DNA from: a virus
IMG/VR virus record: IMGVR_UViG_3300035670_000382
Location: 1 to 45,788 of that record
Length of the DNA: 45,788 nucleotides
Reading direction: 5' to 3' (one strand)
In this document: positions 3,658-42,832 of the stretch, piece by piece
Numbering within the stretch: the stretch's first letter is position 1
Layout of the letters: each line of letters begins with the position of its first letter
Translations under genes and position numbers: made by a program
The notes under the pieces: model-generated
Told to the model about the DNA's origin: nothing
Database searches by the model: none
Seen by the model: only the letters and a program-made list of their open reading frames with translations

Positions 3658-4030
3658 TTTTGATATTTCAAGATGTAGTATAGCCGATATAGAATTTCTG
3701 TTTAACGATGCCAGAGCAGAGGGAGTATTGATAAGCAGCGATTTACTTACTTTTGCATGTCGATCCAATGCTATTATTATAGGGTTCTGTGGCCTTAAAA
3801 TACTTAATGAAACCGCTTGGCTGAAAATGGACTATGTTATACCAGAAGCTAGAAGGCAAGGGATACTATCTGCCATGATACAAGCCCGACTTGATGAGAT
3901 TTATGGGGTTTGTAAGAAGGCGGTATATGCGAATGTAACGCAAGCGGCTCTTGGCGCACACCTTAAAATGGGAGCATTTATTGTTCGTACATACAAAAAT
4001 GGAATAACAAGGGTTCAATATCGTGTCTAA
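3650..4030 (+). CDS. GNAT-family N-acetyltransferase (126 aa)
   Basis: The sequence has the GNAT fold order. A central strand (WLKMDYVIPEARRQGILS) carries the RRQGIL acetyl-CoA loop, followed by the motif B helix (NVTQAALGAHLKMGAF). At 126 residues it is a minimal single-domain enzyme, and its substrate is unknown. The start at 3650 overlaps the previous stop by 8 bases; an in-frame ATG at 3605 would add 15 residues. It is AT-rich and linked to the IbrA/IbrB-like pair, suggesting one acquired cassette. Confidence 0.7.
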   Translation: MIDFDISRCSIADIEFLFNDARAEGVLISSDLLTFACRSNAIIIGFCGLKILNETAWLKMDYVIPEARRQGILSAMIQARLDEIYGVCKKAVYANVTQAALGAHLKMGAFIVRTYKNGITRVQYRV

Positions 4031-5138
4031 TATTCGCATTTACTACACTGATAAGAATGTTTTTGATGCTGCCATTGAGCGAATCGAGTATCTATTTAGC
4101 GAATTCGAAAACGTTATTGTTAATATTTCTGGTGGTAAAGATAGCACTGTTATTCTTAATTTATCTCTAATGGTTGCACGTAAACTCAATCGCCTTCCAT
4201 TGGCGGTTATGTTTTTAGACCAGGAGGCCGAATGGGAGTGTGTAATTGATTATATCAGGACGATAATGTATGATGCGCAGATTACCCCTTATTGGCTACA
4301 AGTTCCTATTCGATTGACAAACGCGACATCTACTAGTGCCCCATATTTGTGGTGCTGGAGGGATGGAGACCGATGGTTGAGAGATAAGGAATCAATTAGC
4401 ATTCATCAAAACAAATATGGAACGGACAGATTCCACCCAATGTTTAAGGCTTTTATAGATGCGGAGTTTAAAGAAAGGAAGGCTTGTTATATAGCAGGCG
4501 TTAGGTGTGAGGAAAGTCCTGGGAGACAACTTGGGTTAACAACTTCTCTCAAATATAAACATATTCCCTGGGGGAAAATCTTGAATAAAAGGCAACAACA
4601 TTACTCGTTTTATCCGATATATGACTGGAGCTATCGTGATGTCTGGCACGCTATAGAGGATAACGGATGGAGGTACTCAAAGATTTATGATTATCAATTT
4701 CAGTATGGTCTTCCGATACATCAAATGAGGGTTTCAAACGTTCATCATGAAACGGCATTATACAGCCTTTTTTATATGCAGGAGATTGAGCCAAATACGT
4801 GGAATAAATTAACGGAGCGACTGGCAGGAGTTCACACTGCTGGGCAGCTGCAATGGGATAATTTTTGTCCGCCCCAATTGCCGTATATGTTTAATACGTG
4901 GTACGAGTATCGAGATTATTTAGCCGATAATCTGATAACGGACCCCAAAATACGGGATTTACTCAAACGAGAATTTACAAAAGATGATACCGGGTTTGTC
5001 TCGTCTATACACAAATCGATGATTACTCGCCATATCAACGCTATTCTAGTTAATGATGTTGACTTAACCAGAATGGGGACGTGGCGAGCAGCACATCTAA
5101 ATTTTCGAGTAAGGAAAGGTGAAAATGAGTATATCTGA
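4023..5138 (+). CDS. PAPS-reductase-fold protein, IbrA-like (371 aa)
   Basis: The PP-loop SGGKDST is at residues 36-42. A later segment GVRCEESPGRQ matches the second conserved region of phosphoadenosine-phosphosulfate reductase/DndC-like proteins, and the length fits the DUF3440 (IbrA) group. Such enzymes bind a nucleotide and often activate or transfer sulfur. The start is GTG, overlapping the GNAT stop by 8 bases. The next gene is ParB-like, as in the enterobacterial ibrA-ibrB pair. The biochemical reaction of IbrA is not established, so phosphorothioation or another DNA-directed role is inference. Confidence 0.75.
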   Translation: MSNIRIYYTDKNVFDAAIERIEYLFSEFENVIVNISGGKDSTVILNLSLMVARKLNRLPLAVMFLDQEAEWECVIDYIRTIMYDAQITPYWLQVPIRLTNATSTSAPYLWCWRDGDRWLRDKESISIHQNKYGTDRFHPMFKAFIDAEFKERKACYIAGVRCEESPGRQLGLTTSLKYKHIPWGKILNKRQQHYSFYPIYDWSYRDVWHAIEDNGWRYSKIYDYQFQYGLPIHQMRVSNVHHETALYSLFYMQEIEPNTWNKLTERLAGVHTAGQLQWDNFCPPQLPYMFNTWYEYRDYLADNLITDPKIRDLLKREFTKDDTGFVSSIHKSMITRHINAILVNDVDLTRMGTWRAAHLNFRVRKGENEYI

Positions 5139-35341: not shown

Positions 35342-35749
35342 TTAGAATGGCACATCGTCTTGTTCAAGGCGCTCAAGCTGGTTTTCTTCTGCGTGAGCCG
35401 CTTCCGCTTTGGTCAGGAAGCGCACGGTGGAGGCGGTCACCTCGAAAGATGCGCGCGCCGTTCCGTCTTGCCCGGTCCATGTGCGCGGCCCTCCGGTTGC
35501 GGGGTCTGCGGTCATCCGTCCTTCGACATAGACCAGCATCCCCTTCTTCACGTACTCGTTGCAAATCTCCGCGAGTTTGCCCCAGGATGACACGCTGAAC
35601 CAGACGGTTTCTTTGACCTTTTCTCCCGCGCCGTTGGTGTACTGCCGGTTGGTGGCGACGGAGAAGGATGTCACGGCTTGCCCGTTGGGGGTGTAGCGCA
35701 TCTCGGCATCTTTGCCAACGTTGCCAACGATGATAATGGTGTGGTGCAT
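35342..35749 (-). CDS. ssb: Single-stranded DNA-binding protein (135 aa)
   Basis: Classic SSB: the OB-fold opening (TIIIVGNVGKDAEMRY), the T..FSVATNR element, WFSVSSWGKLAE, the conserved GMLVYVEGRMT, and an acidic tail ending LEQDDVPF. It coats single-stranded DNA during replication and recruits partners. The gene is next to the annealing protein in the same direction, a 1-base overlap, as in many phages. Confidence 0.92.
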   Translation of the reverse strand: MHHTIIIVGNVGKDAEMRYTPNGQAVTSFSVATNRQYTNGAGEKVKETVWFSVSSWGKLAEICNEYVKKGMLVYVEGRMTADPATGGPRTWTGQDGTARASFEVTASTVRFLTKAEAAHAEENQLERLEQDDVPF

Positions 35750-36504
35750 TATAATTCTCCCTTCGAGTACAGGTCATTGGCGTAATCGGCGGCTTCGGGT
35801 GCGGTCATCTCTGTCCTAACCTTGCGGTACGCCTTGCCCCAGGCAATAATGATACTGTCGTGCGCCTCGCCTGGCAGGTTGGATAGGCCGAGCATCCCTT
35901 TGGCGGCATAGTCATTCTTTGCCAACCCTGCGGTGATAAGGGCGTTCTTCTGCGCAGCGCTCCAAACGTTGCTGTTGTTCTGCGGGATCTTCTCCTGTTT
36001 CTGCAAAGATGCCTCAATCTTTTCGACGCTTGGAAATCCATCATCGTTCAGACTTGGATTGAGCGCCCGCAATACCATAGCGCGCAACCTGCTTTCTTCT
36101 CCATCTGCAAGAACAAACGTCTTACCGATTGGGCGAACTTTTGCCCACATTTTCGGCAGGTCATACAGGAAGCGCCCGACCCCAAACTTCACGGCGGCGC
36201 GCTTGAAAGCGTCCGAATAAGCCGATTTCTCCTGCTCATTCTCGTTGTCATCCTTGCCAACATCCCGGCGCGTAACTCCAAGAACAGTCAGGGAACATTC
36301 CAGCCCACCACTAACGGCGGCGGCGTACGAATCTGACCATTCACCGCCTACAACATCATCGAGGCGATCCATAACGACGCGGGCATCAATGTATGCAACA
36401 ATTAGCGAGTTTCCATTTTCGCTTGGTTTCGTCTGAACCTTGAAACTGATTTTCTCAACGGGGAATGGTTCTTTGAGTTTCGGTAAAACTTCTGTTAAAT
36501 TCAT
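35749..36504 (-). CDS. Rad52/Sak-like single-strand annealing protein (251 aa)
   Basis: The N-terminal core (residues 10-140) has the Rad52/22 pattern: FSFKVQTKPS-like ISFKVQTKPS, the YIDARVVMDRLDDVVGGEWSD helix, and SAYSDAFKRAAVKFGVGRFLYDL. The C-terminal half is Glu/Gln-rich, probably flexible. It anneals complementary strands and works with the SSB. The start overlaps the small upstream frame as ATGA, with AAGGA nearby. Confidence 0.8.
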   Translation of the reverse strand: MNLTEVLPKLKEPFPVEKISFKVQTKPSENGNSLIVAYIDARVVMDRLDDVVGGEWSDSYAAAVSGGLECSLTVLGVTRRDVGKDDNENEQEKSAYSDAFKRAAVKFGVGRFLYDLPKMWAKVRPIGKTFVLADGEESRLRAMVLRALNPSLNDDGFPSVEKIEASLQKQEKIPQNNSNVWSAAQKNALITAGLAKNDYAAKGMLGLSNLPGEAHDSIIIAWGKAYRKVRTEMTAPEAADYANDLYSKGEL

Positions 36505-39983: not shown

Positions 39984-40340
39984 TCACTCTCCTTTGTCAA
40001 GCGCGGCAAGTGCGGCGCGGCAGATCGCAAGGGGGGCGGTTTCTGCGCGCACCATCTTTCCACCAAATTCAGCGTACCAATTTGGGGATATGACTGTTGT
40101 TCTAGCAATCTGGAAAAACCATTCGTCCGGCTCTGCTTGCATCTTCTCCACCACCTCGAAGGCGCAGGCGATGTCGGTGGAGGGCGACCATGACCAGACG
40201 GGGCGGTAATAACCGTTACCAGCATCCCAAGCCGTAATATATGCATCACTCAAAAAGACTTGTTTTAGTTCCCACCCCATCACCTGCTTAGCCATGAGCG
40301 CGTCCAGTTCCGGGCTGGGGGGCATGTTGGTAATATCCAT
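39984..40340 (-). CDS. Phage ABA-sandwich-like protein (118 aa)
   Basis: The arrangement LDALMAKQVMGWE, WSWSPSTDIACAFEVVEKM, and ETAPLAICRAALAAL is the DUF2591/ABA-sandwich pattern found in many phages, function unknown. ATG at 40340 has GGAGG 5 bases upstream. It is preceded by a small membrane protein with an overlapping stop. Confidence 0.7.
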   Translation of the reverse strand: MDITNMPPSPELDALMAKQVMGWELKQVFLSDAYITAWDAGNGYYRPVWSWSPSTDIACAFEVVEKMQAEPDEWFFQIARTTVISPNWYAEFGGKMVRAETAPLAICRAALAALDKGE

Positions 40341-40341
40341 C

Positions 40342-40500
40342 TCAACCTCCACAAAACCATTGTGCGGGGAACATCCCGCAGGATTGACTTACGCCCCACG
40401 CAAGCAGGGCGATCAGCAGCCCAACCGGGATGCCGATCATCAGAATAACGGCGAACAGGCCGACGATATTATGCGCCATGTTCTGCGGTTCTTCGGTCAT
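40342..40500 (-). CDS. Small membrane protein (52 aa)
   Basis: A frame MTEEPQNMAHNIVGLFAVIL continuing through about 25 hydrophobic residues (a membrane helix), then a Cys-containing tail. It overlaps the upstream stop as ATGA and ends just 2 bases before the next start. Function unknown. Confidence 0.55.
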   Translation of the reverse strand: MTEEPQNMAHNIVGLFAVILMIGIPVGLLIALLAWGVSQSCGMFPAQWFCGG

Positions 40501-41147
40501 AACTCTTCTCCCAACATCTCAAACAACTTATTGACTTGTGCCGCCCCTACCGAATCCCTTGCCGCATACCATGCCGCATACCTTACCGCAGCCCCTGCCG
40601 CATACCATGCCGCAGCCCTTGCCGCAGCCCCTGCCGCATCCCATGCCGCAGCCCATGCCGCAGCCCTTGCCGCAGCCCCTGCCGCATCCCTTGCCGAATC
40701 CCATGCCGCAGCCCTTGCCGCAGCTAATTCTTCGTCCGTTGCCTCACCGTTTGCGTAGCGTTCGGCAACGTCACAAGCGGCAATACTGCGCGGGTCGGGG
40801 TTATCCACCAACTTCAATGCTTCCCGCGCACACCAGACGGCGAACAGGCGAGCCGTTTTTTCGTTCCACGTTTCGATCTTGCGAACGAACCGCACTTTAT
40901 ACCCCGCTACCTTATCATCGTCAGCCTTGATATGCCCAGAGAACTCGACCTCGTACATTTCGGCGTTTATCCACTCCAAGACATCTTCGCGCTTGCAGGC
41001 GTGATACCCATTCTCGCAAATCACGATGTCTGAATATTTCAGCGCGGGTAGCCACTTCCCAGGCTTGTCGGTTGGCAGGTATTCGGTGTAGTCGAAATCC
41101 GAATATGGGCCAAGATGATCCTTTGTCAAAAACTTGTAGTATTTCAT
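40497..41147 (-). CDS. DUF7666-like protein with Ala-rich tetrapeptide repeats (216 aa)
   Basis: Residues 1-140 have a phage domain with YKFLTKDHLGPY, the NGYHACKREDVLEWI segment (Cys/His pair) and KIETWNEKTARLFAVWC. Residues 142-201 are fifteen tetrapeptide repeats, with Ala at most positions and Trp, Gly or Arg in the fourth. The tail is short (KLFEMLGEEL). The N-terminal family is only tentatively matched. The repeats probably form a helix with the Trp/Gly/Arg column on one face. Confidence 0.65.
   Translation of the reverse strand: MKYYKFLTKDHLGPYSDFDYTEYLPTDKPGKWLPALKYSDIVICENGYHACKREDVLEWINAEMYEVEFSGHIKADDDKVAGYKVRFVRKIETWNEKTARLFAVWCAREALKLVDNPDPRSIAACDVAERYANGEATDEELAAARAAAWDSARDAAGAAARAAAWAAAWDAAGAAARAAAWYAAGAAVRYAAWYAARDSVGAAQVNKLFEMLGEEL
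40545..40724 (-). repeat. 15 x 12-bp repeat, Ala-rich tetrads
   Basis: Fifteen contiguous 12-base units on the minus strand, mostly (G/T)(C/A)T-GCG-GCA-(T/G/A)GG. The fourth codon is always NGG and the first mostly GCT, GAT or TAT. Confidence 0.85.
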
Positions 41148-41150
41148 GGT

Positions 41151-41255
41151 TTATCCTTTCCACGTCGAACAAACCAGGATTGTGATGCCTATGATTATCA
41201 GGCATCCGGCCAGCAGGCCAGTCAAAACGGATAGAATAATAGTCTTGTTGCTCAT
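41151..41255 (-). CDS. Small membrane protein (34 aa)
   Basis: The frame MSNKTIIL continues as one membrane helix with one Cys (LLAGCLIIIGITILV) and ends STWKG. It ends 4 bases before the start of the repeat-protein gene, sharing its AAAGGATAAACC ribosome site. Function unknown. Confidence 0.5.
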   Translation of the reverse strand: MSNKTIILSVLTGLLAGCLIIIGITILVCSTWKG

Positions 41256-41275
41256 GCCTTACATATACACCAAAA

Positions 41276-41345
41276 GGGCGAAAAATAAAAGTAATATACG
41301 TAACCCGCAAAAGGTGATAAATGTTACTTTCGCCCGCAGTTTTGG
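41276..41345. promoter_or_regulatory. Inverted repeat in the divergent gap
   Basis: GGGCGA (41276-41281) and AAGTAA (41289-41294) pair with TCGCCC (41340-41345) and TTACTT (41334-41339). The gap 41256-41360 separates leftward and rightward genes and must contain two promoters. I see only weak -10 candidates (TGGTATGGT at 41348-41356, rightward). Confidence 0.45.
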
Positions 41346-41360
41346 CGTGGTATGGTTGGG

Positions 41361-41588
41361 ATGATGTATAACCTGACCTACTACTACCAGACAAGCGGCG
41401 GGGCGGTGTCTAACACCGTTCCGCTTTGCGCGGGCCATCTGCTCATGGCGGTGATTGCCATCCTGCACAATACCTGGGATGACGGGTTCCCGATGTTTGA
41501 GCGCAGATGGCATATTGACCACATCCCCGGCCATGACTGCCGGGCGTGTGGATTGATAAGAGCGGCTAAATTGCCGCGAGAGGAGTAG
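41361..41588 (+). CDS. Hypothetical Cys/His protein (75 aa)
   Basis: A mildly hydrophobic N-terminus (MMYNLTYYYQTSGG), then CAGHLL and HDCRACGL segments that could bind zinc. It starts right after the divergent gap; ATG at 41352 is an alternative. Ribosome-site support is weak (GGTTGGG). No family recognised. Confidence 0.5.
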   Translation: MMYNLTYYYQTSGGAVSNTVPLCAGHLLMAVIAILHNTWDDGFPMFERRWHIDHIPGHDCRACGLIRAAKLPREE

Positions 41589-41589
41589 C

Positions 41590-41829
41590 ATGAAAGTCAT
41601 TCTAATTCCCCTCGGAACGCTTCTATTTATGGTGTTCGTGATCGGCCCGCTTGTGGGCAATAACGAAATCGCAAACGGGGTTATCTATCTCACCACCACG
41701 CCCGAAGGGGTAGTGGTTGCGCTCAAGGGCATCGGGCTTGCCATCGTTGGCATCCTGGTCATGCTGGGCGCTCATTGTATCCGGGTCCGCAAAGACAACG
41801 AATGGAGCAATGGTCACAATGAACAATAA
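41590..41829 (+). CDS. Small two-helix membrane protein (79 aa)
   Basis: Two membrane helices (ILIPLGTLLFMVFVIGPLV and ALKGIGLAIVGILVMLGAH) with a basic C-terminus. AGAGGAG lies 4-6 bases before ATG. It opens a run of small membrane genes. Confidence 0.65.
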   Translation: MKVILIPLGTLLFMVFVIGPLVGNNEIANGVIYLTTTPEGVVVALKGIGLAIVGILVMLGAHCIRVRKDNEWSNGHNEQ

Positions 41830-41932
41830 CGATAATGATAGCCTTCGAGCTGCATCTGGGATCTTGCTTGGTCTGTTTATCACCTGCATGGCGATTATTT
41901 GCGGCGGGCTTCTCTGGCTGGTGTTGCGATGA
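41819..41932 (+). CDS. Small membrane protein (37 aa)
   Basis: A frame MNNNDNDSLRAASGILLGLF with one helix ending LLWLVLR. It overlaps the previous gene by 11 bases and the next as ATGA. One of three consecutive single-helix or double-helix proteins. Confidence 0.5.
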   Translation: MNNNDNDSLRAASGILLGLFITCMAIICGGLLWLVLR

Positions 41933-42045
41933 TACTCAATATTCCTGCTATAATGGTGATTGGCGCGGTTGTCGTTTTGATCTTGGGCTGCTTGTATGGC
42001 GGCATTGAGGACAACATGCCCGGAAAGGATGATAAAAATGTGTAA
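41929..42045 (+). CDS. Small membrane protein (38 aa)
   Basis: A frame MILNIPAIMVIGAVVVLILG with one membrane helix and an acidic tail ending DDKNV. It overlaps the next gene by 8 bases. Its coding sequence contains TGCTATAAT at 41946-41954, which could be a -10 for the following gene. Confidence 0.5.
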   Translation: MILNIPAIMVIGAVVVLILGCLYGGIEDNMPGKDDKNV

Positions 42046-42739
42046 GTTTTTTAGCTTTTGCATGGATGAATATGGAAAGAAATATTATTTCGACTGGGAG
42101 CAGCGCAAGGCCGAGAATTTCGGCGATGGGTGCGACAGTCATTCGCACATTTCCAAACACTACGGCCTGGATGAAGATGAGCTAAACAAGTACGAGTACA
42201 ACCCGCTAACGAAAGTGTTCGAGGTTGACCAGATCAATACGATTGACAACCGCATCCAGGCCGAGGAGTGGGTGAGAAAGTTGGACTGGAAAAAGATAGT
42301 CGAGCCGCTTATCATCAAGCCGATAGTCAACCCGCTTAGCGGGCGAGCCAAGAAGCCAAATGTCGATCGTGTTCAAATGCTCAAGGAGTGGGCTACGGTC
42401 TGGGATACGGTCGGGGCTACGGTCTGGACTACGGTCTGGACTACGGTCGGGGCTACGGTCAGGGCTACGGTCTGGGATACGGTCTGGGATACGGTCAGGG
42501 CTACGGTCTGGGATACGGTCTGGGATACGGTCGGGGCTACGGTCTGGGATACGGTCGGGGATACGGTCAGGGCTTATGTCTCATCGTTCTTCGATGTCAA
42601 ATATCAATATGATTTTTCGCCCTGCGTTCGTCTCTGGGATGCCGGATTTGTTCCATCGTATGACGGCGAAACATGGCGGTTACACTCAGGCAATAACGCC
42701 AAAATCGTGTATGAGTGGAAACCCGGAAAGGATGAATGA
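42038..42739 (+). CDS. Phage protein with Thr-Val tetrapeptide repeats (233 aa)
   Basis: Residues 1-115 form a domain (KFFSFCMDEYGKKYYFDW, DSHSHISKHYG, FEVDQINT) of a type seen at the start of phage repeat proteins. Fifteen 4-residue repeats follow (ATVW, DTVG, ATVR and variants). The C-terminal 55 residues contain VRLWDAGFVPSYDGETW. ATG at 42038 follows AAAGGA. Function unknown. The same period, column choice and repeat number as the protein at 40497-41147 are striking. Confidence 0.65.
   Translation: MCKFFSFCMDEYGKKYYFDWEQRKAENFGDGCDSHSHISKHYGLDEDELNKYEYNPLTKVFEVDQINTIDNRIQAEEWVRKLDWKKIVEPLIIKPIVNPLSGRAKKPNVDRVQMLKEWATVWDTVGATVWTTVWTTVGATVRATVWDTVWDTVRATVWDTVWDTVGATVWDTVGDTVRAYVSSFFDVKYQYDFSPCVRLWDAGFVPSYDGETWRLHSGNNAKIVYEWKPGKDE
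42392..42571 (+). repeat. 15 x 12-bp repeat, Thr-Val tetrads
   Basis: Fifteen perfect 12-base units (G/A)(C/A)T-ACG-GTC-(T/G/A)GG. The ACG-GTC pair never varies. The first codon is GCT, GAT or ACT and the fourth TGG, GGG or AGG. Confidence 0.9.
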
Positions 42740-42832
42740 GTGAAGCGAGTACGAATTGAAACCGTCATAATTTTGGTGTTGTCTCTTGGGGCAATCGCCC
42801 TGTCAATCCTGCTTATCTTGAGCGACTTATGA
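42740..42832 (+). CDS. Small membrane protein (30 aa)
   Basis: A GTG-started frame MKRVRIETVIILVLSLGAIA with one membrane helix ending ILSDL. AAAGGATGA lies before it. It overlaps the next start as ATGA. Function unknown. Confidence 0.5.
   Translation: MKRVRIETVIILVLSLGAIALSILLILSDL

Follow-up and report, generated by a model that had tools for sequence, protein, structure and literature searches.

Probably unit-shuffled tetrapeptide arrays in two unrelated early phage proteins, candidates for tunable counter-defence

In 2007, the protein gp54 of mycobacteriophage Tweety was recognised as having tetrapeptide repeats and was likened to variable region 2 (VR2) of Bordetella phage (PMC2884959). 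According to two reviews of later work (PMC9262239, PMC8549241), Tweety escape mutants that beat the defence of prophage Phrann have more or fewer gp54 repeats, that is, gp54 acts as a tunable counter-defence. Here, we examine two divergent genes of the virus record IMGVR_UViG_3300035670_000382, all 45,788 bases of which were analysed (“the window”): gene 1 on the minus strand and gene 2 on the plus strand, each of which encodes an array of fifteen four-residue units (tetrads). We hold, at a probability of about 0.55, that these arrays are recombination-shuffled, probably helical arms of early phage proteins, that selection maintains their mixture, and that they are likely to retune binding to defence factors of the host or of prophages, which would make both proteins candidates for tunable counter-defence.

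Array 1 reads AAAR AAAW DSAR DAAG AAAR AAAW AAAW DAAG AAAR AAAW YAAG AAVR YAAW YAAR DSVG and departs from its framework (Table 1) by TAT at codon 1 (three times), TCG at codon 2 (twice; DSAR, DSVG), and GTA at codon 3 (twice; AAVR, DSVG). Array 2 reads ATVW DTVG ATVW TTVW TTVG ATVR ATVW DTVW DTVR ATVW DTVW DTVG ATVW DTVG DTVR, with ACG GTC at codons 2 and 3 in 15 of the 15 units and ACT at codon 1 in two. That fifteen tetrads lie in register at these positions in both genes, as a preliminary description made from the sequence had claimed, was confirmed by the units themselves, by Tandem Repeats Finder, which calls both arrays, and by shuffling: the pattern GMTNNNNNNDGG, taken over three successive units, matched 17 times in the window versus 0.00 times in 100 dinucleotide-preserving shuffles. 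The description had also called the two host proteins unrelated, which is borne out by a profile-profile comparison of the gene 1 and gene 2 families (0.1% probability).

The variable columns and base choices are indeed the same in both arrays, as had been noticed, but they characterise phage arrays of an entire class and are not peculiar to these two. A scan of viral contigs for five units of GMY-N6-DGG returned at least 120 stretches, and a second scan left columns 1 and 4 free; the counts from both scans refer to the matches listed and are lower bounds. The same 12-nucleotide design occurs in at least 75 other viral contigs and at least seven protein clusters with differing fixed cores. Among the matches listed, 93 coding arrays combine an Ala/Asp-type column 1 with a Trp/Arg/Gly-type column 4, on cores AA, SV, QV, AT, NL, NI, KV, SA, GV, QL, and TV, and the array-bearing proteins fall into seven clusters of two or more members plus singletons, one cluster being DUF6745 (E = 1e-69). 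About 10 of the 12 nucleotides are frozen per array, synonymous sites included; in nearly every array, codon 1 varies at its second base (Asp/Ala) and codon 4 at its first (Trp/Arg/Gly). Of the 77 arrays with at least ten units, 97% are polymorphic at position 2 and 97% at position 10. Most of the remaining ten positions show a single base, and this includes the synonymous positions 3, 6, and 9, which do not vary in 82%, 86%, and 92% of the arrays, respectively. The 83 arrays of at least nine units display 37 different ten-base frameworks. Cellular genomes yielded mostly unrelated Gly- or Pro-rich repeats and only a handful of true arrays, and NCBIfam matches of relatives to Sdr adhesins and FliH were rejected as low-complexity.

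Because the earlier scans had used the pattern, we checked for ASCERTAINMENT after re-recruiting gene 2 relatives by the N-terminal domain alone (58 loci, 53 readable). Arrays of at least eight units were present in 48 of the 53 loci, the remainder being L380, L425, and short, interrupted, or cut arrays. Of the arrays in this sample, 83% were polymorphic at position 2 and 98% at position 10, with mean minor fractions of 0.34 and 0.50 versus about 0.04 at synonymous positions, so that, even where the repeat played no part in recruitment, diversity at the variable non-synonymous sites is about tenfold that at the frozen synonymous ones. Drift alone would not keep two non-synonymous sites diverse, and we therefore infer selection for a mixture, in support of the common selection that the preliminary description had put forward. 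Further support comes from the Arg codons, which are AGG only in 75 arrays, CGG only in 11, and both in 2, where about 40 arrays with both would be expected under free mixing. This mutual exclusion within arrays, like the frozen synonymous sites, indicates that units spread by copying. For gene 1, relatives were recruited in IMG/VR by the helical segment; nearly all of the best 80 of 466 lead into repeats rich in Ala, whose alphabets vary more and whose register shifts in places, and positions 2 and 10 stand out again (91% and 80%) in the 35 relatives with at least eight in-register units.

Two gene 2 relatives look different. At L425:3001-3406, the N-terminal domain (hidden Markov model (HMM) E = 4.4e-35) is followed, up to the contig end that cuts it, by 20-residue leucine-rich-like repeats (GCDLKGITLPTSVGGSLGLS) and no tetrads; the domain thus carries a different repeat type there. 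At L380:3001-3783, the N- and C-terminal domains are intact and the array is replaced by an eroded, non-homogeneous spacer.

The comparison of related phages that had been proposed in the preliminary description revealed unit turnover in both gene families, where near-identical flanks enclose sharply different arrays. In the gene 2 family, loci L392 and L393 have 0/348 flank differences and diverging arrays; in the gene 1 family, the arrays are very different between L484 and L486 (1/222 flank differences). Sharply different arrays also separate L422 from L424 (8/348) and L493 from L501 (7/222). Among mycobacteriophages, Tweety, Taj, DeadP, and KristaRAM show 0/543 flank differences and about 48, 30, 38, and 16 units, respectively, and SG4 and CaptainTrips have 0 flank differences and in-register unit replacements in the array, including Arg-to-Glu exchanges (CGG to GAG). 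Units are thus gained, lost, and replaced among near-identical relatives whose flanks are almost unchanged, and the framework is homogeneous within each array. These changes would proceed via recombination or slippage between units; repeated blocks of four to six units occur within arrays at 8 to 10 standard deviations above shuffles. The Erf-like protein of the window (Table 1) is a possible agent of the shuffling.

Targeted mutagenesis, for example by a diversity-generating retroelement that would mutate two positions per unit directly, could likewise account for variation at only two nucleotide positions and for a unit order near random. We strongly disfavour it, and a diversity-generating retroelement was rejected on the missing enzyme and the wrong substitution pattern: the contig, which may be incomplete, has no match to a reverse transcriptase (RVT_1), AGG and CGG are exclusive within arrays, each array almost always uses just one third base in codon 1, and exchanges such as CGG to GAG in the Tweety relatives alter two bases at once.

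A shared repeat origin or a shared selection had been offered for the likeness of the two arrays; the part on selection stands, and the part on origin is not supported. Their frameworks differ at 3 of 10 positions, and each is nearest to arrays of other phages: that of array 1 is identical to arrays in other gene-1-type phages (L063, L109), and that of array 2 lies one base from SV arrays of gene 2’s own and related families. Copying of a single cassette between gene 1 and gene 2 of this phage, with subsequent drift, would explain the GMT and DGG codons common to both, and only 13% of AA versus xV array pairs come as close as these two do. It is nevertheless a very improbable account, contradicted by the smaller distance (0 to 1 differences) of each array to other phages’ arrays of its own gene type. 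The matched unit number, to which weight had been given, is chance: with unit numbers in complete genes of gene 2 relatives ranging from 3 to 28, equality is about 6% likely, for which reason it carries no weight, and a meaning in the number 15 was rejected.

Gene 1 passes the curated score of DUF7666 (PF24703; 30.9 bits versus a cut-off of 27, E = 3.9e-7) and matches phrog_18326 (E = 2.6e-18); against Imm5_like (PF21805), it reaches E = 0.0013 and 19 bits, below the cut-off of 25 that its relatives L108, L111, and L138 pass. Gene 2 gave no match in Pfam, PHROG, NCBIfam, or PADLOC, and structure searches gave no usable PDB match with either model and no sequence match for gene 1. Our literature search found nothing on DUF7666 or DUF6745 and no paper printing these repeat sequences. 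The start of gene 2 is best placed at 42038 rather than 41996, since MC.FFSF is kept in relatives. Its AlphaFold2 model, based on a 41-sequence alignment, has confident N- and C-terminal domains and a connecting helix at residues 109-182, with a predicted local distance difference test score (pLDDT) of 56-71 over most of the array; in the gene 1 model, the array forms poorly determined helices (pLDDT down to 34). Modelling, which had been proposed along with the comparison of relatives, thus predicts helices for each repeat, at low pLDDT.

Predicted helices in both arrays would also suit a structural spacer, as in the variable helical repeats of TolA, where the array would only set the interdomain distance, its length would drift by slippage, and the residue mixture would keep an Ala- or Val-rich helix soluble and unaggregated. 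The near-random unit order and the wide range of lengths fit such a spacer, and a review of the Tweety work suggests that the juxtaposition of N- and C-terminal domains matters. However, a mere spacer accounts neither for the persistence of Trp at roughly one third of column 4 nor for the recurrence of this pair of columns, with its residue sets, across unrelated proteins whose cores differ, and we consider it possible but rather unlikely.

In the counter-defence reading that we prefer, gene 1 and gene 2 would encode early, non-virion proteins with an expandable, probably α-helical arm of 12-nucleotide units, which would join two folded parts in gene 2 and would link one folded part to the C-terminal helix in gene 1. 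Recombination or slippage between units would lead to their gain, loss, and replacement; selection would keep two adjacent residues mixed, Trp/Arg/Gly at position 4 of one unit and Ala/Asp at the first position of the following one, and would, judging from the pattern, conserve the small-residue core. By analogy with Tweety gp54, changes in arm length and make-up could retune the protein against shifting host or prophage-borne defence factors, and such tuning appears to be the most likely role of the two candidates. Several points weigh against this. Units follow one another in an almost random order (lag correlations are weak, as is cross-dependence between columns), which gives no pointer to a specific recognition code; a lag or neighbour code was rejected, with no signal of weight. 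Both arrays are modelled at low confidence (pLDDT 34-71), PADLOC gave no defence link for gene 1 or gene 2, and no homology of either gene to Tweety gp54 was found beyond the array, so that only the shared architecture links them to its function. Lastly, IMG/VR contigs can be misassembled inside repeats, and an assembly error in a single contig is possible; for this reason, the mycobacteriophage isolates are the safer evidence of turnover, and they agree.

Table 1. Coordinates of the two array genes, their parts, and other features of the window.
Feature	Coordinates	Strand	Basis
Gene 1, 216 aa: DUF7666 domain, Imm5-like helical segment, 15-tetrad array, C-terminal helix	40497..41147	-	Open reading frame, translation, Pfam, PHROG
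DUF7666 domain of gene 1	40869..41096	-	Pfam; domain also in Bordetella phage BPP-1 bbp36
Imm5-like helical segment (RTARLFAVWCAREALKLVDNPDPRSIAACDVAERYANG type), directly before array 1	40725..40865	-	Alignment; 466 IMG/VR relatives
Array 1, 15 tetrads, framework GMT GCG GCA DGG, core AA	40545..40724	-	Sequence, Tandem Repeats Finder, pattern count
Gene 2, 233 aa: N-terminal domain (MCKFFSF...), 15-tetrad array, C-terminal domain	42038..42739	+	Open reading frame, translation, relatives
N-terminal domain of gene 2	42038..42391	+	Present in 58 IMG/VR loci
Array 2, 15 tetrads, framework GMT ACG GTC DGG, core TV	42392..42571	+	Sequence, Tandem Repeats Finder, pattern count
C-terminal domain of gene 2 (SFFDVKYQ...LWDAGFVPSYDGETWRLHSG), beta-rich in model	42572..42736	+	Alignment; AlphaFold2 pLDDT about 93
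Erf-like single-strand annealing protein	35749..36504	-	phrog_1097, E=3e-32
Phage ABA sandwich domain protein	39984..40352	-	E=7e-15
Phosphoadenosine phosphosulfate reductase-like gene	4023..5138	+	phrog_2302, E=2.9e-78
Other open frame across array 2	42360..42743	+	
Other open frame across array 1	40538..40930	+	

The record carries genes for portal, major head, tail, DNA methyltransferase, Erf-like annealing, and O-like replication, and the two array genes have the replication genes on one side and small plus-strand genes on the other, in an early-region position common to their Tweety and BPP-1 counterparts. The ABA sandwich gene is directly downstream of gene 1, and the reductase-like gene is upstream of the portal gene. 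The other frames open across the arrays (GYGLGYGR, RSGIRSGL, and PQPLPH types) are probably a by-product of a 12-nucleotide unit without stops. Elsewhere, L030 carries a paralogous gene pair with arrays near 2393 and 3655 on the frameworks GMC GCC GCA and GMA GCG GCC (Asp/Ala versus Glu/Ala). Possible mosaics are left as hints at L113:8687-9511 (gene 2 C-terminal domain with another N-terminal part) and L080:5863-6741 (DUF6745 after an AA array), from which arrays may also act as recombination joints. A general role as domain-swap joints, suspected for L111 and L089, was rejected, since profile searches failed to confirm those mosaics.

More broadly, and tentatively, many unrelated early phage proteins may have converged on one device, a helical arm with a shufflable surface made of two adjacent residues from each unit, by which several counter-defence proteins could be retargeted at once through unit recombination and without a dedicated mutator. 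Hundreds of unannotated early phage proteins, two of them in the window, can be flagged as candidates for counter-defence that carry their own tuning knob. The pattern, in which hypervariable coding sites stand next to frozen synonymous ones, opens shuffling plus selection to a direct test.

Among known systems, domain II of TolA is a long Ala-rich helix, and we know of no two-column hypervariability in its repeats. What it shares with the window arrays, according to PMC3477136, is a coding repeat of variable copy number in E. coli; TolA differs in being a cell-envelope protein. Phage proteins with DUF6745 (L026, L049, L007, and others) have the 12-nucleotide design and both variable positions on SV, QV, KV, NL, or NI cores, but a different flanking domain, DUF6745 itself. 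The VR2 protein bbp36 of BPP-1/BMP-1 shares its N-terminal DUF7666 domain with gene 1 (E = 1.7e-10), and a variable tandem array follows in both, but the VR2 unit is, in contrast to the 12 nucleotides of the window arrays, 24 nucleotides long (19-bp repeat plus 5-bp spacer; GTATAGYR type in bbp36).

For Tweety gp54, the N-terminal domain aligns with proteins of a sister family (family 2) with arrays of exactly the [AD]AA[WRG] form (hhalign 95.8%, E = 7.5e-9; HMM match E = 2.5e-9). The family-2 HMM gave no match to gene 1 or gene 2, and the gp54-type N-terminal domain (GSH...C..M...D.P.C...ND) reached 0.04% against the gene 1 family in hhalign. The window arrays differ from that of gp54 in column 1 (Ala/Asp versus Ser/Tyr), in the TV core of gene 2, and in non-homologous flanking domains, and counter-defence, reported for gp54, is only a candidate role for gene 1 and gene 2. 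Shared with gp54 (and with Che8 gp57 and PMC gp51) are the 12-nucleotide units, the array set between unique N- and C-terminal parts of an early-region gene, the two variable columns, including Trp/Gly/Arg at an NGG codon, two fixed Ala, and change between close relatives, extreme in copy number for gp54 and, for window-type genes, seen as strongly differing arrays between near-identical flanks. By array design, both window proteins belong to the same class, gene 1 being tied to the VR2 protein by its domain as well, and Tweety gp54, a mycobacteriophage oddity, and VR2, a curiosity known for longer from Bordetella phage, appear to exemplify a single strategy that is widespread among phages.
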